From the NCBI RefSeq assembly GCF_025698545.1, contig NC_068571.1, positions 42,193,733 through 42,257,732 on the forward strand: a stretch of DNA of 64,000 nucleotides. Direction: 5' to 3'. Shown piece by piece: positions 7,760 to 49,904 of this stretch (the first letter of the stretch is position 1; each line of letters opens with the position of its first letter). The DNA comes from Gossypium raimondii (Eukaryota > Streptophyta > Magnoliopsida > Malvales > Malvaceae). The notes beneath the pieces were generated by a model that was given only the letters and a program-made list of their open reading frames with translations, was not told the origin of the DNA and made no database searches. A program made the position numbers and the translations under genes.

Positions 7760-7977
7760 TATATAATGAGGTTTGAAATTCTGACTACAGCTACAGCGAC
7801 ATTAAATCATTAGTATTTCAAATGATAATTTATTGGGAATAATAGCAAGCTCAATGGATTTGATAGAGCAGGGTCCATCAGTGAGTTTGAGGAGCAATAA
7901 ATTTTTTCAAATGATGTACCTTCATCCCTCATAAATGTAAAAACTTGGCAACAAATGTTTTGTGGGTTTTTATTACA

Positions 7978-8162
7978 GGTTTTTTACTGGAATGACAGTT
8001 GGATTTCTTGTTGGATTTTGGGGTGTTTTCGGTTCGTTAATTATTAGCAGGTCTTGGAGACATAAATACTTTCGGCTAGTGAATAAACTAGAAGATTGGA
8101 TCAGATTGACAATGGCATTGGAGACAGTCAAATTGCAGCAAAGACTTCGACTGAAAGACTAA
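7978..8162 (+). pseudogene. RLP remnant A: transmembrane and cytoplasmic tail only
   Basis: The last roughly 60 codons of a receptor-like protein: a single transmembrane helix (GFLVGFWGVFGSLIISRSW) and a short basic tail ending in LRLKD then TAA at 8160-8162. The same tail occurs at 11990-12164 and, diverged, at 39876-40015. The ectodomain is absent: 7760-7977 is AT-rich sequence without LRR similarity and the Copia element ends at 7759. RLPs of the EIX/Cf type are plasma-membrane immune receptors without a kinase domain. As it stands, this is a non-functional 3' stub. Confidence 0.85.
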
Positions 8163-8427
8163 GGTATAAAATGCTCTCCATTTTCTCTCCCTACACGTTG
8201 GGGTCTGCTTCCTAGTCATATGCTAGTTTTAATATATTGTGTGCTTTATCATAGTTGTGTAATCTTGAATATATATTTAATTTCCCGTGAATATATATAC
8301 GGACTACTTTTTTTGTGTGTGTTATTATTTTGGTATATCAAAACATTTGTAAAATAAGGTTTAATTTCAAGTGATACTCACTGTTGCTGTATCGATATAT
8401 AATATCTAAAGTCCACAAAAAAATCTA
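8163..8427 (+). other. 3' flank of RLP remnant A
   Basis: No gene. The segment matches the 3' flank of remnant B2 (12165-12403): both begin aaggtataaaatgctctcca and keep shared blocks such as catagttgtgtaat. This fits old 3' UTR sequence of a duplicated RLP family. Confidence 0.6.
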
Positions 8428-8737
8428 GCCATCAGCCTGCCAGAAAGAATACAGGATGAGATAAGTAGCTTAGAGACATCAATGAATCAAAAAGTGAATT
8501 CAAGGAAACAAAATTCCCAAATGAACCAACAAAGTTCATTCTCTATCATAGCGAAACGAAGTAAATTAAGAAACAGATGTTTCTTAATGAAACAAGCAAT
8601 AAATGAAGGTGTATTAGAGTGTATAAATACACTCTTACTGAAACTTTCCCACATAGACAGATCAAATTCCATTTCCTTGCAACGTTTTCAGGTCAAAATT
8701 GTTCACAGTTTTTCATGAGCTACATGTAGATTCTTTC
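8428..8737 (+). repeat. Duplicated flank segment, left copy
   Basis: Closely matches 43730-44060: both carry the block agcttagagacatcaatgaa followed by long shared stretches. Resumes after the solo LTR at 9194, and a second partial tandem copy lies at 9295-9425. Because an RLP tail precedes it here and RLP remnant D precedes the other copy, a block comprising RLP tail plus 3' flank appears to have been duplicated. Confidence 0.8.
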
Positions 8738-9193
8738 TGTTGAAAAATGGCCAACCATGCTGCTGTTATGTTTTTGTTAAAGTACATAATACTATGATGA
8801 TTTTGTTGAGTGCATGCAGCTTGTATGCATGCTGCAGCAATTGTGCACGTTATAGCAACAATATCTGTTTTAGTTGCAATGTAATTTAGTTTGGTTGAAA
8901 ATGAACTTTGATGTTGATGTTTTGATGGGATGATTGAGCTGATAAATCTGCTTATCCATGTGTACAAGCAATGTTTTAATAGTCCTAATGCTGATTAGTG
9001 GGGTTAGTTGAATATTTGGTGATGTATTTTGACTATAAATGTATTGTTTTCATATTGAATGAGCAAGCATATCAGTTGTGTAAAGCAGATTGCTTCCTTG
9101 CTGCACGTTTGTGAGTACGTAAATTGTTCTTTGTTTCTTCCTCCTTTGTTCTCTGTATTGTTCTCTTATTTTGCTGCTATAAAAAACCCAACA
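8738..9193 (+). mobile_element. Copia-type solo LTR
   Basis: Starts TGTTGAAAAATGG, ends AACCCAACA, and is flanked by the 5 bp duplication CTTTC (8733-8737 and 9194-9198). The uninterrupted target gattctttcccagaatatga is present at about 9391, confirming the insertion. No internal region is present, so the element was reduced by LTR-LTR recombination. Confidence 0.9.
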
Positions 9194-9429
9194 CTTTCCC
9201 AGAATATGACCATTTCCTGCAACTCTAACTATTAAAAGCCATTCTCGGCCAAAAATTAGTTTCGAACATGCTATTTTCTGACACTCTTTAGTATAAGTAC
9301 ACTCGTCCCACATAAACAGATCGAATTCCATTTCCTGGCAACGTTTTCAGGTCAAAGTTGCTCCCAATTTTTCATGGTTTACATATAGATTCTTTCCCAG
9401 AATATGACTACTGGCTGCAACTTCTTACT

Positions 9430-10165
9430 GAAAGAGTTTCTTCCATCTATAAATCTCCAATTCCAACATTTCAGACGTCATCCCCGATTGGTTTTGGAAT
9501 TTGCCTTCAAGACTCCTGTTTTTAAACCTATCCTTCAACCAAATCAGTGAGAGAGTTCCAAATCTGCGCTAAAATTTGGTACTTACCCTTCAACGGATTT
9601 GAGTTCGAATCTTTTTTATGGCCCCATACCTCAATTCTTGTCTAAATCGACAGTGTTGGATCTGTCCAACAACATGTTCAATAGATCGTTGTCTTTCTTA
9701 TGCACAGAGAAGAATAGTTATGTCTTATCTTGATCTCTCTAACAATTTGTTATCGGGACAGATTCCAGATTGTTGGACTACATACCAGCAATTATCTACT
9801 ATCAATTTAGAGAACAATAATTTGTTAGGGGCAGTCCCCAATTCTCTGAGAACAATTGAGCAGTTGGGATCATTGCGTTTAAGGAACACTAGTTTGTATG
9901 GTGAAATACCTGAATCCTTAAAAAATTGTTCCAGATTGAAACTCTTGGATTTGGGGGAGAACAAAATAATTGGAATCATTCCACCGTGGATAGGGGCGAG
10001 ACTAGAGAGTCTGATTGTTCTTTGTTTGCGATCAAATAAGTTTCATGGTGACATACTTTCAACTTTACGTCATCTACAATTTCTTCAAGTATTGGATCTT
10101 TCTCTCAACAATATATCAGGAAGCATTCCATCATGCCTCAACAATTTTACCACAATGGCTAACCA
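9430..10165 (+). pseudogene. RLP remnant B1: LRR ectodomain piece
   Basis: Encodes extracellular LRRs homologous to 38549-39290 of remnant D, for example YLDLSNNLLSGQIPDCW and LLDLGENKIIGIIPPWIG. The plant LRR consensus LxxLxLxxNxLxGxIP is visible in repeated 24-residue units from 9720 to 10160; the first part (9430-9720) lies in shifted frames. It has neither N-terminal signal peptide nor transmembrane segment. It ends where a truncated Copia LTR begins. Non-functional. Confidence 0.85.
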
Positions 10166-10169
10166 TGGG

Positions 10170-10497
10170 AGCTCTAGATACCAATTGTTAGTGGTTTTGT
10201 GAAAGAAGAATAGAGAACAAAGAAACACAAACGTGCAGCATAGAAAGTATGAAACTATCAGCTTATCAATTCAACAAGAAAACAATCCACTTAAGTGATA
10301 AAAATCTACCAAATACACAACTACTCCCACTAATAACTTGGAAACTAGTAAAACTTAACTTGTACTCAAACTGATTATGTCAATCAGCACCTATCATTTT
10401 CAACCAAACGACATAACAAAAGAACTAAATTCGAGCAAATTTTGCATGCCCCAAGGGGCAAGGTTGTAACAGTTGCATGGTTGGTCAAATTGTAACA
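10170..10497 (-). mobile_element. Truncated Copia LTR with primer-binding site
   Basis: On the minus strand an LTR runs from about 10497 to 10186, ending in CACTAACA, followed by a primer-binding site (10170-10185) that reads TTGGTATCTAGAG. The internal region is missing and the junction at 10169 runs straight into RLP sequence. Parts resemble the solo LTR at 8738-9193, so it is a related family. Fossil. Confidence 0.7.
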
Positions 10498-10850
10498 GTT
10501 CTGGATTCTTAAATTCCAATAACCTCAAATATATATTAAACTATGGTGACAACATATGAAGTACTGAACTAATTATTTCGGAATCAAATATCTTAATGAT
10601 TGGCTCAAGTTATTTTTGAACTTAATCAATTTTTCAAATTTAAAAAATAGTATCACAAATAATTTTAATTTCGAACTCGAAGAATGTAGGAGTTAAACTT
10701 ATTTTTTATTTGATAAACCAGTTTAATTGAATGAGAGCATGTAACTTAATTCTCTCATTTATTAGTTTTCCACAACCCACGCACAATAATCAAATCAAAG
10801 AAAAGAACAAGACAATGACATATTATTGTTGCAACAGACAAAAGGATAAC
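10498..10850. other. AT-rich spacer without recognisable content
   Basis: About 350 bp between the truncated LTR and the next LRR piece. I see no coding similarity or repeat ends here. Confidence 0.5.
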
Positions 10851-12164
10851 AATTTTAGTCGAATCATTCCACCATGGATAGGAGAAAGACTGGAGAATTT
10901 GATTTTTCTTTGTCTATGATCGAAGGAGTTTAATGGAGACATACATTCAACTTTATGTTGCCAACAGTTTCTTCAAGTATTGGATCTTTCTCTCAACAAT
11001 ATCTCAGGAACCATTCCTTCATGCCTCTGCAATTTGACTGCTATGGCTCCCCTTGGAAGTTCGGAAGTAACAATCCAGTTGACGTATTATTATGTTGACA
11101 TCGATGACACGGGGGACAATAATTCCAAAATTTGAGTATATGGTGGCACTGTTGAAGTTGGCTTCCATGCAGAACAAGGAGTAGCACAAGGAGCAGACCA
11201 TGCAGCCCGAGCCATGCATGTTGCAGCTAGAGCCTATGCTGCTGATTTTGTTACTTCAAGGAAATATTTTGTTACTTATTTAGATTTGAACTAAGTTGAT
11301 AAAATATTTGATGTAATTAGGTGCTGATGGATTGATAAATCAGCTTCACTATGTGTGCAAGTTATGTTTATCAATTTACTAGGTTACTTAGTGGTGTTAG
11401 GTAAATGTTTAGATGACATTTGCTTATTTTGACCAGCTTATTGACTGGTATATGTAATGGCTTTATGCCTTAATTCATTTTGTAATGAAACTTTCAAAAA
11501 TTCTTCTTCATTCTCTGGTTTTTACTCAAGTTCTTAAGCTGATTTTGAATGTTTTCCTCAGCAAGACATCGAGCCTTCTAGCTCAAGTTTCTGTCAAATT
11601 TTTCATTCTGTTTTCTTAGTCCCAACAAGCACCTTCGATGATCATCTATTAGTTATATGAAAAGCTGTGGAACAAGAATATGTGAAAACCCCTGGACTAT
11701 TGAAGATCATTGACTTGGCGTGCAACAAAAAGTGGGGGAATCCCTCAATAAATAGCAAGTTTGAAAGGGTTGATTGCACTGAATATATCAAGAAACATGA
11801 GGAAAGCATAACCAGGGAGATTGGCCAAATGAAGGTGTTGGAATCACTCAATTTGTCCACAAACAACCTTGCTAGTGAAATCCCGAAGAGCATATCTAGT
11901 TTTATCTTTTCTCAGTGTTTTGGACTTATCAAACAACAACTTATCTGGAAAAATGATGAATTCTTTGAACCTTTATGCTTTTTTACTAGGATGGCCGTTG
12001 GGTTCCTTGTTGGATTTTTGGATAGTTTTTGGTTCCTTATTAATTTGTATGTCTTGGAGACATAAATACTTTCAGTTGGTGAACAAGTTAGAAGATTGGA
12101 CCAAATTGACAATAGCATTAAAGATGGCAAAGCTTCAATGCAGATTTCAATTGAAAGACTAAGG
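10851..12164 (+). pseudogene. RLP remnant B2, split by a solo LTR
   Basis: Second LRR piece. Its first part (10851-11149) again encodes the IIPPWIGERLENLIFL repeat already present in B1, so it comes from another gene copy, not from the continuation of B1. After the solo LTR (11150-11627) the reading resumes with the last LRRs (ESLNLSTNNLASEIPKS), the transmembrane helix and the cytoplasmic tail ending FQLKD, stop at 12162-12164. Frames shift around 11740 and 11900. The region corresponding to the juxtamembrane segment of remnant D is deleted. Non-functional. Confidence 0.85.
11150..11627 (+). mobile_element. Copia-type solo LTR inside RLP remnant B2
   Basis: Starts TGTTGAAGTTGGCTTCCATG and ends TTAGTCCCAACA. 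Flanks GGCAC and AGCAC are a 4 of 5 match target duplication. It shares blocks (tgatgtaattaggtg, gatggattgataaatcagc-like) with the LTRs of the element at 31863-36800, so it is a diverged member of that lineage. Confidence 0.85.
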
Positions 12165-12403
12165 TATAAAATGCTCTCCATTTTTCCCACCCTACTTGCA
12201 CGGGTCTGCCTTCTAGTCCTACTCTGTTATAAATATATGGTATTTCTACTTATAAAATTTACCATAGTTGTGTAATTCTGAATATATATTTAATTCCTAG
12301 GAATAAGTCTATATATTGATTCCCTTTCAAATTTTTTGTGTGTTACTCTGTTGATATATCAAAAAAAAATTATAAAAAAGGTTTGATTTTAAGTTATATT
12401 CAC
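12165..12403 (+). other. 3' flank of RLP remnant B2
   Basis: Matches 8163-8400 downstream of remnant A. The similarity stops close to 12403, where the long-inverted-repeat element begins. Confidence 0.6.
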
Positions 12404-19261: not shown

Positions 19262-20215
19262 TAATTAAGCTACGTAAGTTATGTTTATGTAAGTTATTTA
19301 TTATGAAAATTATGTAAGTTATGTAATTTACGAATAATTAAAAATATGTAAGTTATGTAAGTTGTAAGTTATGTATAATATTAAATAACTAAGTTATGTA
19401 ATTTATGTATAATATTAATGTAAGTTATGTATAATATTAAATAACTAAGTTATGTAATTTATGTATAATATTAATGTAAGTTATGTATAATATATTAAAT
19501 AACTAAGTTATGTAATTTCGTATAATATTAATGTATGTTATGTAATTTATGTATAATATTAATGTAAGTTATGTATAATATTAATTAACTAAGTTATGTA
19601 ATTTATGTATAATATTAATGTAAGTTATGTATAATATTAAATAACTAAGTTATGTATAATATTAAATAACTAAGTTATGTAATTTCATATAATATTAATG
19701 TATGTTATGTAATTTATGTATAATTAACTAATTAAGTTATGTAATTTATGTATAATAACTAATTAAGTTATGTAATTTATGTATATTAACTAATTAAGTT
19801 ATGTAATTTATGTATATTAACTAATTATGTTATGTAATTTATGTATATTAACTAATTATGTTATGTAATTTATGTATATTAACTAATTAAGTTATGTAAT
19901 TTATGTATAATATTAATGTAAGTTATGTATAATATTAAATAACTAAGTTATGTAATTTATGTATAATATTAATGTATGTTATGTAATTTATGTATATTAA
20001 CTAATTAAGTTATGTAATTTATGTATAATATTAATGTAAGTTATGTATAATATTAATTAACTAAGTTATGTAATTTATGTATAATATTAATGTAAGTTAT
20101 GTATAATATTAAATAACTAAGTTATGTAATTATGTATAATATTAATGTAAGTTATGTATAATATTAATTAACTAAGTTATGTAATTTATGTATATTAACT
20201 AATGTAAGTTATGTA
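19262..20215. repeat. AT-rich minisatellite upstream of the CACTA transposase
   Basis: Nearly 1 kb of irregular tandem units built from taagttatgtaatttatgta and taatattaatgtaagttatg alternations, with unit lengths of roughly 35-45 bp. It starts about 65 bp upstream of the TNP2-like start, where the promoter would be. Confidence 0.9.
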
Positions 20216-22529
20216 ATATCTTATATTTATATTTATATTTATATTTTAATTTTTACTATTCGTAAATTTGAGATTTTATATTTATATTTTAATTTTTACA
20301 TAATTTGGTATCTCAATGTTTATAACGCTATTAGTTAAATGAAATATCTTATTTTAAGTAAAATGCTTATGAGAATTTTACAATTTTATTAATTTCATTA
20401 AAATTCTTAGCGAAGAAAGAAATTAATTATGAATTCTGTAATGCGAGACTTGAATGCACTAGGAATGTGATGAACTGAGGTCTATTATTCAAAAATTATA
20501 GGAAAAACAGGAGCAGATGTTGAATTATATTCATGGCTGCTAAGAACTCATTGTATGAGTATTTGGTGTTCAAATTAATTATGATTATTTACCTATTTGC
20601 AGCTGGCTTTGTTATGAAATTAATTTGCATAAAATAAAGCCTTATTCAAATCTTGATCGATGCTTATTTCATTTGCCTTTGACCTCTAATCTTTCATTCA
20701 ATTCTGTGGTAATCATGCTTATTTCATTTACCTTTAAAACTTGTTCTTTGCAGTACATGAATGATAATCTTGCTATCCAAGAAAATGAATGTTTTGAAAC
20801 ACAAAAATAGACAAATTCTTCAAATTCATAGAAGCGTAGGCCACACTTCATAGAAGAAATTACAAAATCTCAGGTTCATGATTTTGTCCTGCATAACCAT
20901 CTGGAAATATCCAAAATTCCACATGTTTGATGCTTCCTTTTATACAACTAAATATAGTGACATGATTCAGAGGCCACAACTGCCTATGTCCAAACTCGTG
21001 AAGTGCACATTTCACTGTCTCAAGACACATGTTATATGCAGTTAAATTTTTTAATGAATCATTATTACAATCTAGCATCATACATGGATATAAGCATTCA
21101 GGGCAATCATATAAGAAACTAAGAATGTATGATGAGGAAAATAGATCTCTACAATGTAGACATTTGCTTTCAAATGGAAACGTAAGTCAAGAAACTTACA
21201 GCAAATCTCAAAAGAAGACAAGATTTTCCAACACCAGAATCTCCAATAAACAGAAGCTTGAACTGGTAGTCACTGCAAAAGATTGCAACCAGATAATATC
21301 AGTATCTGTTCCAATGATGCATAAAAATAACATCTACAACTGTAACATAAAATTTTATTTTCACCAAAAGAGGCCTAATCCCCAAACCCAGTCTCTCATA
21401 AAACAAATGAAGTTTAACTTGTCAGCGTTAAAATGCCAATTAACCAAATTAAGTGCCCAAAGATTAACCTTAGAATGCCAAGCAATTATCGGTTGACTCC
21501 TAATTTTACTGGTGCATCAAGAAAGCGCAATACAAAATGAATTTCGATTTCAAACAAATTACAGCAAGTCACCATCATTCACTCATATATACATACATAA
21601 TGAGCACATTTTTTAAGACAGATTTGCTTCTTCAATACACATAATCGATTTAGCAACATGTTAACAAAATATAACAAATTATTTGCAAAAGAATAATATA
21701 CCACAATTTATTATGGCATCTTACAAAATTAGAAGCCTATGTCCCTCCTGAATCCATTAATTGACCACATAACACATTAACAATAAAAAAGACCTAAAAG
21801 CTCGCGCTTTTAAAAAAATATATTTTCAATTCCACAAAGAAATCCAAGTAACAAATAAGATAATAATAACAGAAAAAACAGAAGGGAACATCTGAATTTC
21901 ATCAACAGATCTGAAATCAGAAGGAATTAAAGTAAGGACATTTTGATTAACTAATTAAGTTCAGGAAACTTACCTAAATACGAGCTGATCAATAAGGCAG
22001 TAACAAATCGTTAACAAACAATTTTGAGTTCTCCTTTCTTTAACAGTTGGGCAAATGCAGTGTGAGTACCTTAAACAAAAGTTGAACATAAGAACAACTG
22101 TTAATGTTAACTCTTCAACCATGAGAAGAACAAACTAGAAAGCAAACCCAGGATCGGCACTTCTTCCTAAACCCTAGACACGCAAAAATTCCCAAATTCC
22201 CCGAATTCCCAAACAAACAGGCCAAAGCTTGGTGATTGAATTTATTATTTAAACCCCAATTTCCCAAATTACACTTAACCCAAACCCTAAATCAAGATAC
22301 ATCATTTTAAAAGAAAAAAAGCTTACCTTTTAACCACAAATTCCGCAACTTTGATACTATCCTGTCAAGATTGGCTCAACTGTTGCTTCGTTTCACCTGA
22401 TTTGTGAGTTCCCCTCTCCCTTTTTTCCTTTGTATTTTCTCTTTCGTTTCAATCGCTTTCGTTTTGTCCTCTGATTCTGTTTCTATTTATTGTGTTCTGC
22501 CTATAGAGAAAATGGCAAAGTTAAAACAC
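20216..22529. other. CACTA filler, partly captured host sequence
   Basis: No intact gene. It contains the Rab exon at 21200-21272. On the minus strand there are further splice-like sites, for example TTTAG|GTAAGT near 21970 and AAAAG|GTAAGC near 22327, and leader-like sequence with gtctagggtttagg near 22180, suggesting that about 1.2 kb of a host gene 5' end (about 21200-22400) was captured. An open stretch at 20860-21081 has no family I recognise. Confidence 0.5.
21200..21272 (-). pseudogene. Captured exon of a Rab GTPase (Rab1/RABD-like)
   Basis: On the minus strand, TTTTGCAG is followed by 73 bases encoding [20 protein letters not shown] and then LRFA, followed by GTAAGTTT. The P-loop GDSGVGKS (GxxxxGKS) is intact. 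The exon limits (starting TGACTAC, ending at RFA) correspond to exon 2 of plant RABD genes, as I recall them. The other Rab motifs (switch regions, NKxD, C-terminal cysteines) are not present nearby, so this is a gene fragment carried by the transposon. Confidence 0.85.
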
Positions 22530-25204: not shown

Positions 25205-25792
25205 TACTATTAGCGGCGCTTCGGCAAAAACGCCGCTAAAGGTAAATACTTTAGCGGCGCTTAAATACAAATGCCGCTGAAGACAAGCGAATTAGTGGCG
25301 CTCAGTTAGAAATGCCGCTAAAGATCCGAGAATTAGCAGCGCTTGTATAAAAACGCCGCTAAAGACCCGAGCATTAGCGGCGCATAGACAAAAACGTCGC
25401 TAAAGACCCGAGCATTAGCGGCGCATAGACAAAAACGCTGCTAAAGATCTGAGAATTAGCAACGCATAGACAAAAACACAGCTAAAGATCCGAGCATTAG
25501 CGGCGCTTTCACAAAAACGCCGCGAAAGATCGGAGCATTAGCGACGCTTACACAAAAACGCCGCTAAAGGTTTAAAAAATCGCAAAAACGACGCCATTGG
25601 TCTTAGGTTTTTTGTGGCGCTTTATATAAAACGCCGCTAATTCCTATTTTTAGCGGCGCTTCCGGATAATCGCCGCTAATGCTCTACCTTTAGCAGCGCT
25701 TTGGCTAAATCACCGCTAATGCTCGATTTTTTGTGGCGCATTTGTTCCAAACGCCGCAAAAAGTGCCGCTAAAAGCCTATTCTGGTGTAGTG
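25205..25792. repeat. Right CACTA subterminal hairpin repeats and TIR
   Basis: About ten 50-60 bp units, e.g. agcggcgcatagacaaaaacg repeated at 25376 and 25418, ending in the terminal inverted repeat. Two neighbouring units (around 25370-25460) are almost identical, pointing to a recent local duplication. Confidence 0.9.
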
Positions 25793-31862: not shown

Positions 31863-32337
31863 TGTTGAAATCAGCCTCCATGCAGCAGCCAAGGTGGCCA
31901 TGCAGGGAACGTGCAGCAAGCAGCAAGCTGGAACTGTTCTTGTTTCATTTGGTTACTCCAACGAACTTTTTGTATTTTAATTGGTTTTAAACTTAGTTGG
32001 TAGCTGCATTTTGATGTAATTAGGTGTTGATTGACTGATAAATCAGTAAAGCAACACATACAAGCTAGCTTATCAAGTTACTAGGCAAATTAGTGGTGTT
32101 AGGTATGTTATTAGGTGAAAACTTGTTTATTTTGTAAAATTTATTTCATATATGTAATGGCATTATGCCTCATCAATTAATTAATGAAAAATTCAGCTTG
32201 AATCTCATTCAATCTCTCTCTTTCTTTTCTATTTTTCCATTTTGCAAAGCATTTTCTGTTTTTGTTTCTTCCCCAAGCCATGAGGCTTGCTGCACAAGCA
32301 AGGCCAAACCAGCTTGCTACTGCCTTTAACACCAACA
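31863..32337 (+). repeat. 5' LTR of the right Copia element
   Basis: Begins TGTTGAAATCAGCC and ends TTAACACCAACA; near-identical to 36326-36800. Confidence 0.95.
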
Positions 32338-32399
32338 ATTGGTATCAGAGCCTTTGTCTTAGAGGACCTGTTGTAGCAAAATCCTAGCTCGAATAGCTT

Positions 32400-33328
32400 C
32401 TTCAAGATTTTCACCAGCAGCCCCACTAGTCTTCAATGGAGAAGGTTTCAACATATGGCTGGTCAAGATGAAGACTTACCTGCAGGCCTTTAATCTGTGG
32501 GAAGTTGTTAACACAGATACTGAGCCAGCACCACTGAGGGCCAATCCCACAGTAGCTCAAATCAGACAACATGCTGATGAGAGGACCAAGAGGCACAAAG
32601 CCATGTCCTGCATTCAGAATTGTGTGTCAGATGTCATCTTCACCAAAATTATGGCCTGTAAAACTCTAAAACAGGCTTGGGACAAGCTCAAGGAGGAGTT
32701 TCAAGGCACAGAGAGGACAAAGAAACAGCAGCTGTTGAATTTAAGAAGATATTTCGAGAATTTAAAGATGAGGAAAGAAGAAACTGTGAAGCAGTATGCG
32801 GATAGAATCATGGCAGTGGTCAACAGTATAAGGCTCCTTGGTGAGCACTTTGATGAGGCAAGAATAGTGGAGAAAGTTCTCTCTACTTTGCCTGAGAGAT
32901 ATGAAGCAAAGATATCCTCCTCAGAAGGCTCAAGAGATCTAGCTAGTATCTCTTTGACTGAGCTGATTAACACATTCTATGCTCAGGAACAAAGAAGAGC
33001 TAGCAGGGCTGAAGACCATCAGGAAAGTGCTTTTCAAGTTAAAGCAAAAGAAGCCTCGAGCACCAATGCTCATAAAGGTAAAAAGTTCTGGAAAAATAGG
33101 CCTAAGCCTGATGCTGCAAGAAGCAGTGAACTCTGCAGACATTGCAACAGGCTTGGTCATCCAGAAGAAAGATGCTGGTTCAGACCAGATGCAATATGCC
33201 AACACTGCAAGAAGAAAGGCCATGTTGAAAGGGTTTGCAAAAATAAAAGTAGGCCTAAGCAGGTTCATTCTCAGCAGAAAAATGAAGTGGTTCGAGTGGC
33301 TGAAGACAACAGTGACCATGAAAAATAG
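32400..33328 (+). pseudogene. gag region of the right Copia element
   Basis: UBN2-type Copia gag with a CxxC zinc-knuckle part near its end (33130-33240). Highly similar to the gag of the left element (6585-7163). Part of a broken element. Confidence 0.88.
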
Positions 33329-33337
33329 GTCTTTGTT

Positions 33338-36310
33338 GTGTCCTGCTTAGCTGCTGAGAAGAAGTGTTCAAAAGGTTGGTTATTAAACAGTGGCTATACT
33401 AACCACATGTCATCAGATGCATCCTTGTTCAAAACCTTGGATAGAAGCTACAAAACTAAAGTTAAGGTTGGAAACGGTCAATTCATAAAGGCTGAAGGAA
33501 AGGGGGATGTGCTAATATGCACTCCTACAGGTGACAAAGTTATCTTGAATGTGCTGTTGGTGCCTGAGATTGACAGAAACCTTCTCAGCATAGCTCAACT
33601 GCTCGAGAAAGGCTATTCAGTTATGTTTAAGGGCAATGAGTGCTAGATTACTAATCCAAGTAGATCAAGTCTCATGACAGTCACCATGACTGACAAATGC
33701 TTTGAGGTTCACGGGCCAAGTGACTCAAAGTCAGCTTGCACAGCCTCTACTGATGACTCCAAGCTTTGGCATCAAAGGCTTGGACATGCCAACTTCAGAT
33801 CAATAGCTCAAATGTTCAGTGAAGGTTTGGCTGAAAACTTCACCAACTCAGTGGAGAATGATGAAGTTTGTGAAGTATGCCAGCTAAGAAAATAAGTAAG
33901 ATTGCCATTTCCTACAAACACAGCATGGAGAGCCACAGAAAAGTTACAGCTGGTGCACACTGATGTGTGTGGTCCGATGAGGACTGAATCACTCAACAAA
34001 AATAGGTACTTCATCCTTTTCATTGATGATTATACTAGATATTACTGGATTTACTTCATGAAACACAAGTCTGAGGTAGCTCAAGTGTTTATAAAGTTTA
34101 AAGCTGCAATTGAAACAGAGACAGAATGCAAATTAAAGTCTGTTAGATCAGACAATGGAACTGAGTACACCTCAGCTTAGTTTCATGCCATTTGCAATGA
34201 TGCTGGCATCAAACACCAGCTAACAAATGTGTACACACCTCAGCAGAATGGGGTCAGTGAAAGGAAAAACAAAAGCCTGGTGAACATAGGTGTCTGTTGT
34301 TTGAGAAGAAACTGCTCAAAACCATGTGGGCTGAGGCAGTAAATACTGTTGTTTACCTTCAAAAAAAACTTCCAACCAAGGCACTTGCTCACACGACACC
34401 TTTTGAAGCTTGGTTTGGATTCAAGCCATCATTGGCTCATCTGAAAGTCTTTGGTTGCTTGTGCGATACACAAATACCAGCAGTAAAAAGAGATAAGTTG
34501 TCAAAGAGGGCTCAACCAGGTATCCTAGTAAGCTATAGTTCAGTCAAGAAAGGTTATAAGATCCTAGATCCTTTAACAAACAAGATTCAAGTGAGCAGAG
34601 ATATGATCTTTGATGAAAATGCATGCTGAAATTGGGAGAAAAATGAACCAGAAGCTATTACAGAAGAATTGGTGTCTGATCAGACTGAACCCGAGCAATT
34701 TGGTCCTCAAATAGACATTGATGATGTGTCTATCAAGGGCACAAGGCTCTTAGATGAAATTTATGAGAGGGCACAAGTTGCCACTGTTGAACCTACCAGT
34801 TTTGAAGAAGCTGAAGTAGATGAAGGATGGAAGCAAGCTATGGTTGATGAGATCAACATGATTCAAAAGAACCAGACATGGGAGTTGGTTGAAAAGCTTG
34901 TAAACAGGAAGACCATTGGTGTAAAATGGGTCTATCGAGTCAAGCACAATACAGATGGGAGTTTAAACAAGCTGAAATCCAGGCTAGTTGTGAAGGGCTT
35001 TAGTCAAAGATATGGTTTGGACTACATGGAAACATTTGCTCCAGTAGCCAAACTTGATACAATCAGATTGTTGGTTGCTTTAACTACTCAAAACCAGTGG
35101 ACAATTTACCAGATGGATGTGAAGTCTGCATTTCTCAATGGCTTTCTGGAAGAGGAGATATACATTGAACAGCCTCAAGGTTTTATAATGTCTGGTAGAG
35201 AACACATGGTGTACAGGCTTAAAAAGGCCTTGTATGGCCTGAAGTAAGCTCCTAGAGCCTGGTATGCTTAAATTGACTCCTACTTGCTCAGTCTGGGATT
35301 CGAGAGAAGTGCTAGTGAACCAACACTTTATATTAAGAAAAATTGTGCTAAAACACAACTTATTGTCTCTTTATGTCGATGATCTCCTGGTGACAGGAGG
35401 AGATAAGATCAGATTAGCTGACATCAAAACAAAAATGAAGAAGATGTTCGAGATGTCTGACCTGGGTCTGATGACATATTTTCTAGGAATAGAGGTGTGC
35501 CAAGTAGAAGGAGGAATCTTTTTGGGACAAAAAAACATTTGCTTTGAAGGTTCTATCCAAGTTTTCAATGCAGAACTGTAAGCTAACAAGCACACCTATG
35601 GCTGTTGGTATGAAGCTGTCGAGCCAAGAAGATCATGAGCCTATCTGTGAATCTATTTATAGGAGCCTTGTTGGTTGTTTGTTGTATTTAACAGCAACAA
35701 GACATGATATTTTGTTTGCTGTAAGCATACTATCAAGGTTTATGCATTGTTGTAACAAGCAGCATTACCAAGCAGGGAAGAAAGTGCTCAAGTACATCAA
35801 AGGTACCTTGATGGAATACATTTCAGCAGAGCTGAAGATTTGAAGCTGATAGGTTATACTGACAGTGACTGGGCTGGTTCAAAGGATGATATGAAAAGCA
35901 CTTCTGGTTATGCTTTTACTCTTGGTTCAACTATGTTTTGTTGAAGTTCAAGAAAGCAATCAATGGTGGCTTAATCAACAGCAGAAGCAGAGTATGTTGC
36001 AGCTGCTAATGCAGTTAATCAAGCTATTTAACTGAGAAAAATTCTCACTGATTTGAATCTACAACAAAATGGAGCAACTGAGATTTATTGTGACAACAAG
36101 TCAGCTGTTGCTATTGCTAAAAATCCTGTCTTCCAGGGTAGAACAAAACACTTCAATATTAAGCTGCATGTGATAAGAGAAATGGAATAAGCTCGAGAGA
36201 TTGAGTTGGTTCACTGCAATTCTGAAGAACAGATTGCTGATATCTTCACAAAAGCTCTTGAAGTATCGAGATTCATGAGCTTAAAAAAGCAATTGGGAGT
36301 CAGCAGCATG
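33338..36310 (+). pseudogene. pol region of the right Copia element
   Basis: Protease part 33338-33646, pre-integrase and integrase about 33674-34630, reverse transcriptase about 34669-35845, RNase H about 35850-36310. All are recognisable by Copia signatures and by match to the left element. Broken fossil. Confidence 0.88.
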
Positions 36311-36325
36311 GAAGCTGAGGAGGAG

Positions 36326-36800
36326 TGTTGAAGTCAGCCTCCATGCAGCAGCCAAGGTGGTCATGCAGGGAACGTGCAGCAAGCAGCAAGCTGAAACTAT
36401 TCTTGTTTCATTTGGTTACTCCAATGAACTTTTTGTATTTTAGTTGGTTTTAAACTTAGTTGGTAGCTGCATTTTGATGTAATTAGGTGTTGATTGACTG
36501 ATAATTCAGCAAAGCAACACATACAAGCTAGCTTATTAAGTTACTAGGCAAATTAGTGGTGTTAGGTATGTTATTAGGTGAAAACTTGTTTATTTTGTAA
36601 AAGTTATTTCATATATGTAATGGCATTATGCCTCATCAATTAATGAATAAAAAATTTAGCTTGAATCTCATTCAATCTCTCTCTTTCTTTTCTGTTTTTC
36701 CATTTTGCAAAGCATTTTCTGCTTTTGTTTCTTCCCCAAGCCACGAGGCTTGCTGCACAAGCAAGGCCAAACCAGCTTGCTACTGCCTTTAACACCAATA
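36326..36800 (+). repeat. 3' LTR of the right Copia element
   Basis: Begins TGTTGAAGTCAGCC directly after the polypurine tract and is followed by the target duplication GTCGT. Confidence 0.95.
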
Positions 36801-36997: not shown

Positions 36998-37262
36998 TAA
37001 GTCAGAAACTTTGTTGAACTCGAACTCCCTTATAATCAATCACCGAGGCCATCTCTTGAACGCATTAATTTAAATGGAAATAATTTCAAAGGTGGAATAC
37101 CAAAGTCCTTGGGTCTTAAAATTTTTAATACATCCTTGCCTAGTTTGGTACCATTTCAAAGCTCAGTGTTTTGTATTTGGATGAAAATCAAATCACTGGG
37201 CCATTACTTTATCTTTCAAGATTATCATCTTTGAGAGAATTATGTCTTCGAGGAAGCATCAG
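36998..37262 (+). pseudogene. RLP remnant C: short LRR piece
   Basis: Resembles 37795-38290 of remnant D with an internal deletion: aatataagtcagaaactttg and the sequence for PSLERINLNGNNFKGGIPKSLG (shown here only as similarity to PSLERISFEGINLEGGIPK) are followed directly by parts corresponding to LPSFVPF and ENRFTGPL. No continuous reading frame. A small non-functional fragment upstream of D in the same orientation. Confidence 0.75.
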
Positions 37263-37639
37263 CCAAAAGGGCTAGCAATTCGAATCAACAAAGTTAGAAG
37301 AAAATAAACAATAACTAATGTTAGCAGTGCATGGTAATCAATAGAGGATAGACAGATGTCGGCATGTGGTTAACTAATTTGTCTCCATATCATTTTCCTA
37401 GCAATAGTGACAATCACATAAGATGAACAAAAATCTCCGGACACTAAACTACAAACAGTATTGGACAATATGGTCAAAGGATTACTTATTAGTTACACGC
37501 TCTCTTTGGAACTACCGTTTCAGAGTGCATTGTTGCCATTAATTTTGTGTCTTCGTTGAAGGAAGACGAGCTCATTTCCATTTTCACCTATGCCTTGCAC
37601 TGCTGTTTGCACTATTTGCAAAAGCTACAAACTGGCTCT
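37263..37639. other. Spacer upstream of RLP remnant D
   Basis: No gene or repeat end recognised. The last part (37500-37640) may derive from the RLP N-terminal half but I cannot align it. Confidence 0.4.
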
Positions 37640-40015
37640 AAGTTATTCAATCTCATCCTTCCCTCTTAGTTTTACACTTTGAAAAATGTGACTTTGCGGA
37701 GGTTGATCCATCATCTCTTGTCCATTTTAATTCCTCAAACTCTTTATCTGTTCTTCACCTGATTCGGCTTTCTACTTTTCATCCTTCGGCTTTTCCTCTG
37801 TTACTGAATATAAGTCAAAACTTGGTTGAACTCGATCTTTCTTATAGTTATTTTCCAAGTTTGATCCCAGATACTTTTGACAACATGCCATCTCTTGAAC
37901 GCATTAGTTTCGAGGGAATTAATCTCGAAGGTGGAATACCAAAAACCTTGGGCAATCTCTGCACTTTAAAAGAATTAAACTTACAGGAAAACAGTCTCAG
38001 TGGACCTCTCACCTTTGTTGTGAAGAACTTGAGTGGATGTGCCAAGGATTCTCTGGAGGTTTTGAAGTTGGATTTTAACCATTTCAATGGATCCTTGCCC
38101 AGCTTCGTACCATTTTCATCTTTGAGAGAATTAGATGTTGGATATAACCAATTGAGCGGCCATTTCGAAGACAACTTTGGAGAATTTTCAAAGCTCAATG
38201 TTTTGAATTTAGATGAAAATCGATTCACTGGGCCATTGTCTGATCTTTCAAGATTGTCATCTTTGAGAGAATTATCTCTTAGAGGGAACCGATTCGAAGG
38301 GCCTCTTCTGTTGAGCATCGGGAAAATGTCTAAACTTGAGCTTTTGGATGTCTCCAACAACTCTTTGCATGGTGTCATTTCTGAAGCTCATCTTTCAAAT
38401 CTTACCAAATTGCAATTTCTGTCCATATCTTTTAGTGCTTTGTCATTCCATCCCAGCTCTGATTGGATCCCTACGTTTCAACTTTATTTTATTGGATTGA
38501 GTCCTGCGAGCTTAGCCCCCAATTTCCCAGTTGCTTAAGAAGCAAGTTAATTTCTTGCATCTAGATATCTCCAACTCCAACATTTCAGATGTCATCCCCG
38601 ATTCGTTCTGGAATTTGCCTTCAAAACTCTTGTTTTTGAACCTTTCCTTCAACCAAATTAGTGGGAGAGTTCCAAATCTGCCACTAAAATTTGATACGTT
38701 CCCTTTAATGGATTTGAGTTCTAATCTTTTTTGTGGTCACATGCCTCAATTTTTGTCTAATTTATCGATGTTGGATCTATCCAACAATATGTTCAATGGA
38801 TCATTGTCTTTCTTATGCATAGAGAAGGATAGTTATTTGTCTTATCTTGATCTCTCTAACAATTTGTTATCGGGTCAGATTCCAGATTGTTGGACTACAT
38901 ACCAGCAATTATCTATTATCAATTTAGAGAACAGTAATTTGTCAGGGGTAATCCCTAATTCATTGGGATCAATTAACTAGTTGGGATCATTGCATCTAAG
39001 GAACACTAGTTTATATGGTGAAATACCTCAATCCCTAGAATATTGTACCCACTTAAAACTCTTGGATTTGGGGGAAAACAGATTAACTGGAACCATTCCA
39101 TCGTGGATAGGGGAGAGACTAGAGAGTCTGATTGTTCTTCGTCTACGATCAAATAAGTTTCATGGTGGCATACCTTCAACTTTATGTCATCTACAATTTC
39201 TTCAAGTATTGGATCTTTCTCTCAACAACATATCACGAAGCATTCCATCATGCCTCAACAATTTGACCACAATGGCTAACCTTGAGAGCTCGATAGCAAC
39301 CATCATGTTGGGGTATGTCTATCCTGATATTTATGGTATTAATTCCAATATTGTGAAATATGGTGGCTTTTTCGATGATCATCTGTTAGTTATATGAAAA
39401 GGTGTGGAACAAGAATATCAGAGAACTCTTGGATTACTTAAGAGCATTGACTTGTCATCCAACATATTCAGTGGGGAAATCCCTCAAGAAATAGCAAGTC
39501 TGCAAGGATTGATTTCTCTGAATCTATCAAGAAACACGTTGAGTGGATGCATAATTAGGGAGATTGGCCAATTGAAGGCAATGGAATCACTCGATTTGTC
39601 AACAAACAACTTGTCTGGCGAAATCTCGAAGAGCATGTTCGATTTATACTTTCTCTGTGTTTTGGACTTGTCAAACAACAATTTGTTCAGAAGAATTCCC
39701 TTAAGCACTCAACTGCAGAGTTTCGATGCTACTTCATATTCAGGAAATCCAAGACTGTGCAGAACCCCGTTGAAGAAATGTCCTGGAAATGAGCTACCAA
39801 AGTCGCCTAAAAATAGCAATATTGAAAATAGGAGTGAAAGTGACAAAGGATTGTTTGAGCCTGTGGTTTTTACTGGGATGGCCACTGGATTCTTTGTTGG
39901 ATTTTGGGGAGCTTTTGTTTCGTTACTGATTAACAAGTCTTTGAGACATGGATATTTTCAATTGGTGAAGAAGTTAGGAGATTGGATCAGATTGAGTTTG
40001 CAACGCAGAGTTTGA
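37640..40015 (+). pseudogene. RLP remnant D: LRR receptor-like protein, EIX/Cf type
   Basis: The largest RLP copy. Reading frames run from about 37640 (LLVLHFEKCDFAEVDPSSL) through some 20 extracellular LRRs with the consensus LxxLxLxxNxLxGxIP, a juxtamembrane acidic stretch, one transmembrane helix (GFFVGFWGAFVSLLI, about 39885-39930) and a short basic tail ending LSLQRRV, stop 40013-40015. Family members are plasma-membrane receptors that signal through SOBIR1-type kinases. The N-terminal signal peptide and first LRRs are not found. One frameshift lies near 38525, and two in-frame stops near 38979 (TAG for an expected Gln codon before LGSLHL) and 39395 (TGA for the expected Trp before KGVEQEY). 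Probably a pseudogene; a truncated secreted product is possible but unlikely. Confidence 0.88.
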
Positions 40016-40252: not shown

Positions 40253-40255
40253 TTA

Positions 40256-43200
40256 GGCTGTGTTTGATAGGGGGAAAACCAATTCCGGAATTGGTTTTAC
40301 ACGTTTTCCAGTGTTTGATAGCAGGAAAATATTTTCCTTTTGTAAAACCAGTTCCGCAACACGGGAAAACCTATTACAAATTGGGGGAAAATGTCTTACG
40401 CTTTTGAACTCGGTAAGACATTTTCCGGAATGATGCCTTCTTCTCCCCTTTCCCCTTTCCCTTCCCCTCCCATTTTCCCTTCCCCTTGGGCTGCAAATCA
40501 GTTTGGTCAAGGACCTCTTCCGGTTCCTCCTTAATCCAGGTAAGGCTCCTTCTTCTTCTTCCGTTCTTCATTCCTTTTTCTCCTTCTATTCTTCATCTTC
40601 TCTTCTCAGCATATTCTGTTTTGTTTCCCCTCTTCCTCTCTCGTTCTTTGATTTCTAACATTTTTATTTTAATGAATTATGCTGATTGTCATCAAATTGA
40701 GAGAAAGTATAGTAGCCGGTGAAGATTACAGATTATCTATTGGGCTATTCACCTCCTATTTGGGCGACTTTTCTTCTTTGGATGATATTTTGGTTATATT
40801 TTGGTTATATCTGAGATGGTTGATTATGTCATTTAAGCATATATTCTTCATAAATCTCCCCTTGAAAAAAAAAAGAAAAAAGAACTTTCTTCAGTTCAAT
40901 GGTGTTATTCAATGACTACCTTTTTTACTATGCAGGGTGTTGTATACGCCATAGATATGATTATGGAGCCATCATCCTACTAGGTAATCATTTTGGATTT
41001 GGTTTTAGCTATTACACAAGCTTCTGAATATAAAATGCTAACATAACACAACTTACTATCAAATGAATATACAAGGGAACATCTTTGTGGCCAATGTCTA
41101 ATCCCTTGCTCAAATTACCAGTGATGCCATGGACTTGTGATAGTTCACTATTTGTCTGCTAGGTGAGCAGATATGGAAGAGAGCAAAGCTCTTCCCCAAA
41201 ACGTAGATGGATAGGATAAGAAGTGGACTAGGGTAATCTTTTATATGAAACAGAGTATTCATTGATGGTTTATTGCATTGCCTCTAGTGAGATTCATAGG
41301 CATCTTCACTAAATGTATATCATATGATAACCAGTTGGGTTTGGGTTAAGTCTAAAACTGTTTTCTACTTTTTCTTTGTGCATTTTTTGGCTAGGATGAG
41401 TTGTACAGGGCAAGTAAAACAAATCCTTAGCTTCTGAGAATTTCCTATTTCTTTTTCTGAAGAATTTAGTCAGCTCTACTTGATTGTATCAAAGCATCAA
41501 ACTTGTATAAATATGTGAAGCAATGCCCCTAGAAATGTGCAGATGTTACTATTAGCTAGTAGCTGCACTTCCTTAGAGTCTTCTATTAGATGTTTTCGTA
41601 CCAAAGTTCAGCAGTATAATAGTCTGACGCCATATATTTATTTAACTAAAATATGGCTTGTGATATTTTGCTGCATTTGAGGTAATGTTCTTAATAACAT
41701 TAAGAAAATGATAGTAATTATCCCCTTTCGTTTTAATGCATATTTAAATGGAAATGGTTTTTTGTGATCAAGATGAAAAGAATAGAGCACATATTTCAAA
41801 GTGGCTAAGGTTATCCATTAGAATGTATGGAAGTTTTGAGAAGTCATTGGACGAGCTGAGATCTTTTTTCAGAGAAGTCAAGGTCCGTTTTGAGTTCCTT
41901 TATTAATATTTCCTTTCTTTTTAGACTGTTTGGTTTTCTTGTGCATGGACTATGGTCTAATGGTGTTACATAAGGTCTTTTCTCTGGCTTCACTTGTTTG
42001 CAGGACTTGGTTTTCAAGAACAAGGTTTGTAATATGAACCTCATATTCTTTTAGGGAAATATAGTCATTTTTCTCATGTTGTACTAACTGAATCTGTATT
42101 GTTCTTTTATATATGTCTTTGCTATAGTTTCTAGGGTTGTTAGACATTATCTTAACTCACACGACTTGTACGATGCAAATGTCTATATATACATGACAAA
42201 CACATTCTAAACATGAAAATATGAGTTGCATTTACTAATATCTCTTCTTGTTGGTGCACGATGTGATGTCCATATATCCAAACATGAAAATGTTGGTTCC
42301 AATTTACATATCATGAAGATGGTAGTTATATAATTTTACATTCATGTGTTTTGGTGTGATTGCAGATCAAAGATGGTTTTGCTGAGGGGAAAGACCTTGT
42401 TGTATCTGTTATGTCTGCAATGGGGGAAGAGCAGATCTGTGCTCTCAAAGACATTGGTCCTAAGTAGTTTCAAATTCATTTATTGCAAATCTTAGATGGA
42501 ACCATAAAAGACTTTGGCAGTACTAAATGCGATTTTGATGTTTTGTTTTGAGTTTGGATAGAAAAAAGAGAACAACAATATAACTAGTTTCTTATTGTGC
42601 TATGGATTCTTGTTTTGCTTTTCTTTTCAATAATTTTATTATCTCGTCTTTATTTTTGTGTTGGTAACATTTAAATTCTAGCTTTTAATTGCATATTACA
42701 CTTGCATTAGTTACCCAACATATATTAATGTAGCAATTTAAGTTTGACATATCATTTAGTACGAGTTAATACAATATACTAGTTTTTAAAAAATAAAATT
42801 TTCTAATAATTACAGTATTTTTATTTTAATTTAAATCCCATGTTAAATATATGTATCACAAGAATCGATTGGATAAAAGTAGAATCAAATTAATATAAAA
42901 TTTAAATACAAATAAATGTTTTAATAATGAAGAAGTAAAATCAAATCGATATAATCTACAAATAGATGAACATTTCAATTTAATTAGATAAAACTTTTAT
43001 TAATAAAAATTTATTTATAAATAAATCATTGCAATATGTGAAAAATAATTTAAAATATAAAATTTATTAATATGTATATAAATTTATTAATATATGTAAA
43101 ACAACTTTTCCGAAAAATATTTTCAGAAATCATCAAACAATGAGAAAATATTTTACAGATTCAATCAAACACCAGAAAATATTTTCCAGTAAATCATTTT

Positions 43201-43302
43201 ACAGAAAAGTAAAACATTTTCCAGAAATCATTTTACAGAAAAGTAAAACATTTTCCAGAAATCATTTTACGGAAAACATTTCACTGCCAATCAAACAGAC
43301 CC
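40256..43302. mobile_element. PIF/Harbinger-like non-autonomous element carrying host exons
   Basis: Ends GGCTGTGTTTGATAGG and the inverse CCAATCAAACAGACCC, flanked by TTA on both sides (40253-40255 and 43303-43305), as for PIF/Harbinger elements. Subterminal repeats of tttccagaaatcattttaca occur three times near the right end, and their inverse occurs at the left (ggttttacacgttttccag). No transposase is seen. The middle has gene-like structure: a GT donor after ccttaatccag near 40540, several AG/GT-bounded blocks, and a final exon from eIF5A. TIR and TTA alone would also fit a large MITE-like relative. Confidence 0.8.
42366..42467 (+). pseudogene. Captured last exon of eIF5A
   Basis: After the acceptor TGTGATTGCAG, 102 bases encode IKDGFAEGKDLVVSVMSAMG followed by EEQICALKDIGPK and TAG. 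This is the C-terminal end of plant translation factor eIF5A, and the intron position before IKDGF is where I expect it in plant eIF5A genes. The hypusine-site exon and the rest of the protein are absent from the window. It lies inside the PIF/Harbinger-like element and keeps its frame, stop and splice acceptor, so capture appears recent or the sequence is selected in a chimeric transcript. Confidence 0.9.
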
Positions 43303-43305
43303 TTA

Positions 43306-48295: not shown

Positions 48296-49340
48296 AAGTA
48301 ATTCAGAGAGAAGGAGGAGGAAAAAGAAGAGTGTATTTCATAGCAGATTAAGGCAGTCAATGGTTTTTGTTTTTATAAAGGGACTCAACCCGCCAGCCAC
48401 GAACATGTTAGTTGGATTATTCCAGCAAAAGAATCTTCTAAATATATATTTTTTATAATAAGTGTTTGTATTAAAAGGACTAATTCAGATTTGTTTATAA
48501 TTTCGGTGGTTGAGAGACGTATTAATATTGGCCTGTTTTCCACATTTTGAGATTTCAAAAATAATTAAACTACCCAATCTTCTTAAATTAATCCTTAAAT
48601 GTTCAAATAATCTAATCATTCATCGCAGTATGTATAGCTTAGACCTAATGTGTAATAAAATAGGTATAATTTAACTTTTAACCCATCGACTTTTAAATTT
48701 TAGTGAAATTGTTCTTTTAATAGGAAAACTAATTGAGCTGTTGAAATTTTAATAACATTAATACAATAGGTTATTTCTTAAATTTTTATAAAGTATCGTG
48801 AATTGCTACATAAGTTATCATGCAAAATTTTAATAGTTTAATTAATTTTTTCATCCAAAGAACAGTAATTTAACTAAGCTTTGAAGGTTCAAAGTTAAAG
48901 TAATTCAAAAAATACCGATAAAAGTAAATATTAAAATTTCATCATATTAATATTATTAAATTTTTATGAGATTTTTTATTTCTTTTACATTCAAATTATT
49001 CATGCAATAAATATATTAAAATTTTAATAATTATAATATTAATATTTTAATATTTCAATACCAATGTTTTAAAAGTTTGAGGCAAAATTTAAAAACAGGG
49101 GAGTGAAGCCATAAAAATAATAAATTGATTAATGAATTTGGAAGGAAGAAAGAATCTTTTGGAGTTGAAGGAAAGGGTGCTAATTGCTTACATCATAGTG
49201 AAAATGATATTAGAATATTAAGTATTTTTAAATTAATTTAATTTCAGTTTCCGATAAAGTGTTTGATTAATAGTCACGTAAATGAAACCCCTTTTTTTCC
49301 CCTTTGATCTACCAGGTTATTTGATAGTTGATTATTAAAA
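48296..49340. other. Intergenic region
   Basis: Leader and promoter of the small gene up to about 48430; beyond it only AT-rich sequence with no gene recognised. Confidence 0.4.
48371..48377 (-). promoter_or_regulatory. TATA box of the 77-residue protein gene
   Basis: TATAAAA on the minus strand, 76 bp upstream of the start codon at 48295, a usual distance for a short plant leader. Confidence 0.5.
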
Positions 49341-49895
49341 GGGTAAACTACACCATTAGTCATTAAATTATAAGTAATTTTCGTATTGATCACTTAATTT
49401 TAAAAAGTTATAATTTGGTCACTAAATTATTTGAAAGTTTGCATTTAAGTCACTGAACTGTTCAAAAGTTTTATTTAAGTCACTAAGCTATTAGTTTTCT
49501 TTTTAAGTTCCGTCAGTGAGCTCCAAGTAACAATTCAACAATCGGTACAGTAGATCTATATCCATCGATGAGTAGAAAAACATACCTAAATCCAAGTCGA
49601 TCTGACAGTTAATATCGGAGATTAGAGAAAAAGGTTATTTGAATTTTGGTTCGTAGATTCGTATTGTCAAAAGTTGTTTCATAAAAAAAACTAAACTACA
49701 GAAAAGAAAGGGAAAGAGATCATTTGATTGGTGCAGACAGTGCGAACAGAGAGCCATATAGAGTCAATTTTAATTGTCCAATGACTTAAATGAAAACTTT
49801 TGAATAGTTCAATGACTAAATTGTAATTTGTTTTAGTTAAGTGACCATAATGAAAATTTACCCATAATTTAGTAACTAAATGGTGTAGTTTACCC
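49341..49895. mobile_element. Mutator-like MITE with long TIRs, 555 bp
   Basis: Starts GGGTAAACTACACCATTAGT, ends with the inverse (taaatggtgtagtttaccc), and is flanked by a perfect 9 bp duplication TTATTAAAA (49332-49340 and 49896-49904). The TIRs extend over about 150 bp with repeated ttaagtcactgaact-like units. A 9 bp duplication points to Mutator-type mobilisation. Confidence 0.9.
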
Positions 49896-49904
49896 TTATT
49901 AAAA

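Follow-up and report, generated by a model that had tools for sequence, protein, structure and literature searches.

The interval 40256-43302 of the window, by which is meant the whole 64-kb stretch of DNA that was analysed, is probably a non-autonomous Pack-PIF-type transposon (the probability is put at roughly 0.78) that holds parts of two or more host genes and is inserted at TTA. Host gene pieces between the ends of an element, without a transposase, characterize Pack-TYPE elements, and the pieces found here are eIF5A and FANCJ-like exons, with no transposase family in the 10 segments scanned. The earlier note had described a PIF/Harbinger-like element with an eIF5A terminal exon. This is still the best reading, but the cargo was understated, as FANCJ-like helicase exons upstream of the eIF5A exon also lie inside the element, and the argument from novelty is weaker than was proposed. 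The parts of the putative element are as follows.

40253..40255, no strand: left target-site duplication TTA, from the sequence and the pair scan.
40256..43302, plus strand: whole putative non-autonomous PIF/Harbinger-like element, 3,047 bp, from its ends and TTA, with no transposase family in 10 frame segments.
40256..40271, plus strand: left terminal inverted repeat GGCTGTGTTTGATAGG, 13/16 identical to the right end and the only GG-starting pair among 475.
40434..40539, plus strand: E1, candidate leader-like exon, pyrimidine-rich, donor CAG/GTAAGG ranking within the top 0.03% among GT sites of the window; its start is placed where the open frame begins.
40936..40983, plus strand: E2, putative FANCJ-like helicase exon, (G)CCIRHRYDYGAIILL; E 5.9e-5 by tblastn of a 56-residue FANCJ query, Helicase_C_2 with joined E2-E4 E 5.1e-4, below the curated cut-off.
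41773..41882, plus strand: E3, putative FANCJ-like helicase exon, (D)EKNRAHISKWLRLSIRMYGSFEKSLDELRSFFREVK, weak acceptor; tblastn with 56 FANCJ residues E 5.5e-4, joined E2-E4 against 9ej9_A E 7.1e-6.
42004..42024, plus strand: E4, candidate 21-base exon DLVFKNK; both of its splice sites rank high in the window (acceptor top 0.12%, donor top 1.2%), with phase 0 at either end.
42366..42467, plus strand: E5, eIF5A terminal exon with stop; Pfam eIF-5a E 1.1e-8, 3hks_A E 6.7e-10.
43287..43302, minus strand: right terminal inverted repeat, GGGTCTGTTTGATTGG on the minus strand, from the sequence, the end comparison and the pair scan.
43303..43305, no strand: right target-site duplication TTA, from the sequence and the pair scan.

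The firmest part of the cargo is the eIF5A exon. On the plus strand 42366-42467 translates to IKDGFAEGKDLVVSVMSAMGEEQICALKDIGPK followed by a stop, a peptide of 33 residues that matches positions 42-69 of the 69 positions of the Pfam eIF-5a profile and the structure chain 3hks_A, an eIF5A-2 protein that we take to be from Arabidopsis; by tblastn the exon is 72% identical to this protein over 32 residues. It also agrees at every residue with a plant eIF5A sequence, but one that was set down after the exon had been viewed, and this agreement is not independent evidence. By an approximate weight matrix the acceptor, TTGCAG/ATC, ranks within the best 0.9% of AG sites on the plus strand of the window. 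Because of the Pfam and 3hks_A matches and this good acceptor, the exon is real and its coordinates are correct, and the proposal of an eIF5A terminal exon, in frame and with acceptor and stop, is borne out. When two plant eIF5A proteins were compared with the 64 kb by tblastn, 42366-42467 was the only strong match (E 1.9e-17 and 3.2e-11), and the search revealed no further eIF5A exon. Nor did it show any upstream exons of eIF5A immediately beyond the element, which would have told against capture. The next-best matches (E 0.033 and 0.24) fall at a single place near 17.4 kb, beside a CACTA-like Transposase_21 reading frame. An eIF5A retrocopy is rejected, given the intron-type acceptor before the exon and there being no other eIF5A exon joined to it. 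An exact degenerate eIF5A pattern was absent from collections of viral contigs and genome contigs, where plant DNA is not expected.

A second host gene, a FANCJ/BRIP1-like helicase, appears to be represented upstream. When 56 FANCJ residues were compared with the whole window by tblastn, the best two matches were E2 and E3, the third reaching only E 0.46. Both lie within the one element, on the same strand and in FANCJ order, and it is on this agreement that we conclude from the sequence that a second gene is represented upstream of the eIF5A exon and on its strand. The joined E2+E3+E4 peptide matches residues 832-887 of the FANCJ chain 9ej9_A, with E4 outside the match, and FANCJ is the only helicase among the three PDB sequences matched at E up to 10. 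The similar stretch spans about 50 residues, which is short, and the profile matches are weak: 20.6 bits against Helicase_C_2, below the cut-off of 25.3, and E 0.004 with 15.8 bits against NCBIfam rad3, far below the cut-off of 247. A single frame segment beginning CCIRHRYDYGAIILL has a weak Helicase_C_2 Pfam match of E 0.011, hardly better than the E 0.015 and 0.03 that unrelated families reach in neighbouring segments. This segment and the first FANCJ tblastn match extend past the exon (the latter to 41021), and the sequence from the donor at 40984 is taken as intron. E2 presumably represents the helicase motif VI region, and where it has CCIRHR the relatives of FANCJ are assumed to have RCIRHR; with the first C read as R, the Helicase_C_2 match rises to 26.8 bits (E 6.2e-6). 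A FANCJ/BRIP1-like fragment would be expected to show the end of the helicase C-terminal domain and then an SKW stretch, and to be nearest to FANCJ within the Rad3/XPD helicases. The naming of FANCJ rather than another Rad3/XPD helicase would hold for the PDB sequences, with which the comparison was made.

What marks the limits of the element? The terminal inverted repeats GGCTGTGTTTGATAGG and GGGTCTGTTTGATTGG agree at 13 of 16 bases, and TTA stands at 40253-40255 and at 43303-43305, in keeping with the 3-bp TTA/TAA target duplication of PIF/Harbinger elements. The ends as they were proposed before are retained in respect of the two TTAs and the inverted repeats, but the right end is GGGTCTGTTTG and not an exact GGCTGTGTTTG. 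PIF-type terminal inverted repeats start with GG and carry TGTTTG inside; both ends here start with GG and hold TGTTTGAT. PIF/Harbinger is the best reading of the superfamily, an assignment drawn from the ends and TTA only. A hAT element was considered and rejected, as the flanking 8-mers, CGAACTTA and TTAATCAA, differ and there is no 8-bp target duplication. No transposase family was matched in the 10 stop-free frame segments scanned, which are part of the segments of the element. In its 3' part the element is very rich in A and T, with 14-17% G+C at 42750-43199. Inside the left end are a perfect 24-base palindrome at 40275-40298 and a 14-base perfect inverted repeat at 40386-40426, and the right end has weaker inverted repeats only.

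Might the two ends instead be separate PIF-type MITEs, or chance inverted sequences, that flank local gene debris whose pieces came there through other duplication events without ever having moved as a unit? In a window as AT-rich as this one, ends that agree at 13/16 and have TTA beside them are not uncommon on their own. The scan covered 696,945 equal TTA/TAA pairs lying 300-6000 bp apart, with 16 terminal bases compared in inverted orientation; 475 of them score at least 12 of 16 and at least 40 score at least 13, those listed being mostly AT-rich, and the count alone is no proof of an element. The palindromes of the left end resemble a small solo element, and no second copy of the element was seen within the 64-kb window, as would also suit such an origin. 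Against it, no pair among the 475 other than 40256/43302 has GG at both ends (a feature examined after the ends were known). In addition, when the subterminal stretches of 190 and 210 bp are aligned in inverted orientation the local score is 31, whereas 1000 shuffles in two-base blocks gave a mean of 12.3 and no score above 21. A paralogous locus, 7971-8690, is without the whole interval, which also argues against separate arrivals, and this explanation is held to be improbable. A search of the window with the left-end pattern alone (up to three mismatches) gave three matches where 1.47 were expected, which is within chance.

The flanks are consistent with an insertion. On its left the element adjoins the 3' end of a receptor-like LRR gene, to which tails at 7981 and 11980 are related. 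The stretch 39867-40190 matches 7981-8285 at 68%, and on the other side 43718-43985 matches 8413-8681 at 78%; the spacing between the flanks is 127 bp at the paralogous tail vs. 3,527 bp at the element locus. The tail at 7971-8690, which has both flanks and no insert, fits an insertion, though the exact limits are not proven by it: once the element and a single TTA are taken out, 477 bp of flank faces the 127 bp of the paralogue, and about 350 bp is unexplained. The second paralogous tail (11980-12292) showed no match to the right flank. Copies of receptor-like LRR genes, some of which look cut, are clustered at 37154-40015 and 7981-12292 and are useful internal paralogues for the recognition of insertions.

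The following history can be proposed for the Pack-PIF-type element. It would have taken copies of FANCJ/BRIP1-like helicase exons together with their introns, and also the eIF5A terminal exon, probably with the eIF5A 3' untranslated region. As introns and splice sites were kept, genomic DNA and not RNA is the likely source. Capture may have come about by mobilization of neighbouring insertions or by copying of genomic DNA during repair, and a PIF transposase made elsewhere would have moved the element, which then would have inserted at TTA downstream of the receptor-like LRR gene. If it were transcribed from the leader-like exon, splicing could give a FANCJ-eIF5A chimeric RNA.

How well do the pieces splice? 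Sites were scored with an approximate plant weight matrix, against plus-strand sites of the window. The candidate exons E1-E5 are bounded by GT-AG wherever a site is needed, and six of the eight splice sites fall within the best 2% in the window; the E2 donor ranks at 3.5%, whereas the acceptor of E3, at 15%, is weak. E1 has no protein family match. E2 and E3 join in phase, and E1-E5 joined give one frame that is open to the eIF5A stop. Random AG..GT chains of like lengths were open into the eIF5A exon in 132 of 20,000 cases for four exons and in 799 of 20,000 for the last three, a control that is only suggestive because the frame was considered when the splice sites were picked, which overstates the surprise.

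The single orientation of the pieces and their one open frame, found in so few of the four-exon chains, lend something to a variant that does not exclude the Pack-PIF reading, whereby a FANCJ-eIF5A chimera pre-existed elsewhere as a rearranged gene or pseudogene and was captured in one event. This is lessened by the frame having guided the choice of splice sites, by the more frequent open chains for the last three exons and by the agreement in phase between E3 and E5, which has about a 1 in 3 chance of occurring at random; prior fusion is thus a possible but doubtful refinement.

An expressed chimeric gene within the element, giving a new small protein that would end in the eIF5A C-terminal segment, is very unlikely. 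The intact eIF5A exon, the E1-E5 open frame and the mostly strong splice sites are in its favour, but the first in-frame ATG lies in E3, with none before it and 60 residues from there to the stop, and an earlier out-of-frame ATG (MMPSSPL...) is present at the E1 start. The E3 acceptor, which 15% of window AG sites equal in score, and CCIRHR in place of the presumed RCIRHR, a change that costs the helicase match the bits given above, also count against it. A long fusion protein is unlikely because of the positions of the two ATGs. The cargo of the Pack-PIF-type element is most likely debris that is not translated, or that yields no more than a 60-residue product starting at the E3 ATG, and it is probably not a working gene. 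The fullest version of the gene hypothesis, in which a PIF-type element assembled a complete, transcribed and spliced chimeric gene from leader, helicase and eIF5A exons, whose product could interfere with eIF5A, is most improbable. Were it true, the product would bear the C-terminal segment of eIF5A and nothing else of that protein.

As a phenomenon, gene capture by PIF elements is already described, and the element here adds one more example. Pack-MULEs and gene-carrying Helitrons differ from PIF elements in their ends, target duplications and transposition machinery. They are similar to the present element in that host gene fragments are found within a single element, and a review reports chimeric RNA for some Pack-MULEs (PMC13317346). 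The earlier note had held that capture is much less often described for PIF/Harbinger elements. This is partly right, but such cases were already in print, as the accessible parts of two papers indicate, from grapevine in 2008 (PMC2528002) and from maize in 2022 (PMC8903248).

The maize Pack-PIFs, found with packFinder, are presented in the available text as non-autonomous PIF elements with coding pieces, most of them with TTA or TAA duplications, and their capture is modelled as a fusion of neighbouring insertions (PMC8903248). The element here is likewise a non-autonomous PIF element with a TTA duplication and coding pieces held between its ends. It differs in scale from the Pack-PIF family described in that text, where Pack members average 535 bp with captured segments of 163 and 58 bp, whereas here there are 3,047 bp, several spliceable exons and two genes. 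The maize study, according to the same portion, removed singletons, and the present element is a singleton as far as can be seen in the 64-kb window. In the literature searched, PMC8903248 was the sole match to the term Pack-PIF. Grapevine Pifvine-3 has, in the part of the report available, long 5' regions of up to 3.5 kb, mostly of high identity to grapevine genome sequences that include exons and introns (PMC2528002), and is like the present element a PIF element that holds host exons and introns. The Pifvine families are described there through transposase and ORF1, whereas no transposase is found here in the 10 segments scanned. A literature search for capture of FANCJ or eIF5A by a plant transposable element showed none described among the matches listed, judged by titles and the starts of abstracts, and among the papers listed for eIF5A gene structure none dealt with eIF5A. 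In the present example, a PIF-type element brings together exons from two unrelated host genes and retains introns and splice sites, such that a chimeric RNA is possible. It bears on the question of whether DNA transposons besides Pack-MULEs, CACTA elements and Helitrons create new genes through exon shuffling.

By its content, which includes Copia and CACTA-like elements, receptor-like LRR genes, an EMP70 gene and a presumed MutY-like gene matching HhH-GPD and NUDIX_4, the window is presumably plant nuclear DNA. A further terminal-inverted-repeat element is present at 49335-49901, with TTA followed by AAAGGGTAAACTACAC / TAAGGGTAAACTACAC (15/16), and inside it is an additional inverted pair at 49446-49819 (14/16). 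GGGTAAACTACACCA ends are common in Malvaceae genomes. The Copia element at 31863-36625, with gag at 32363-33328, has two 300-base end stretches that are 97% identical (10 mismatches), and this identity suggests that it was inserted fairly recently. Tandem arrays are found at 19320-20233, where 31- and 56-base units are interleaved next to a CACTA-like transposase frame, and at 25210-25569, with 41-base units.
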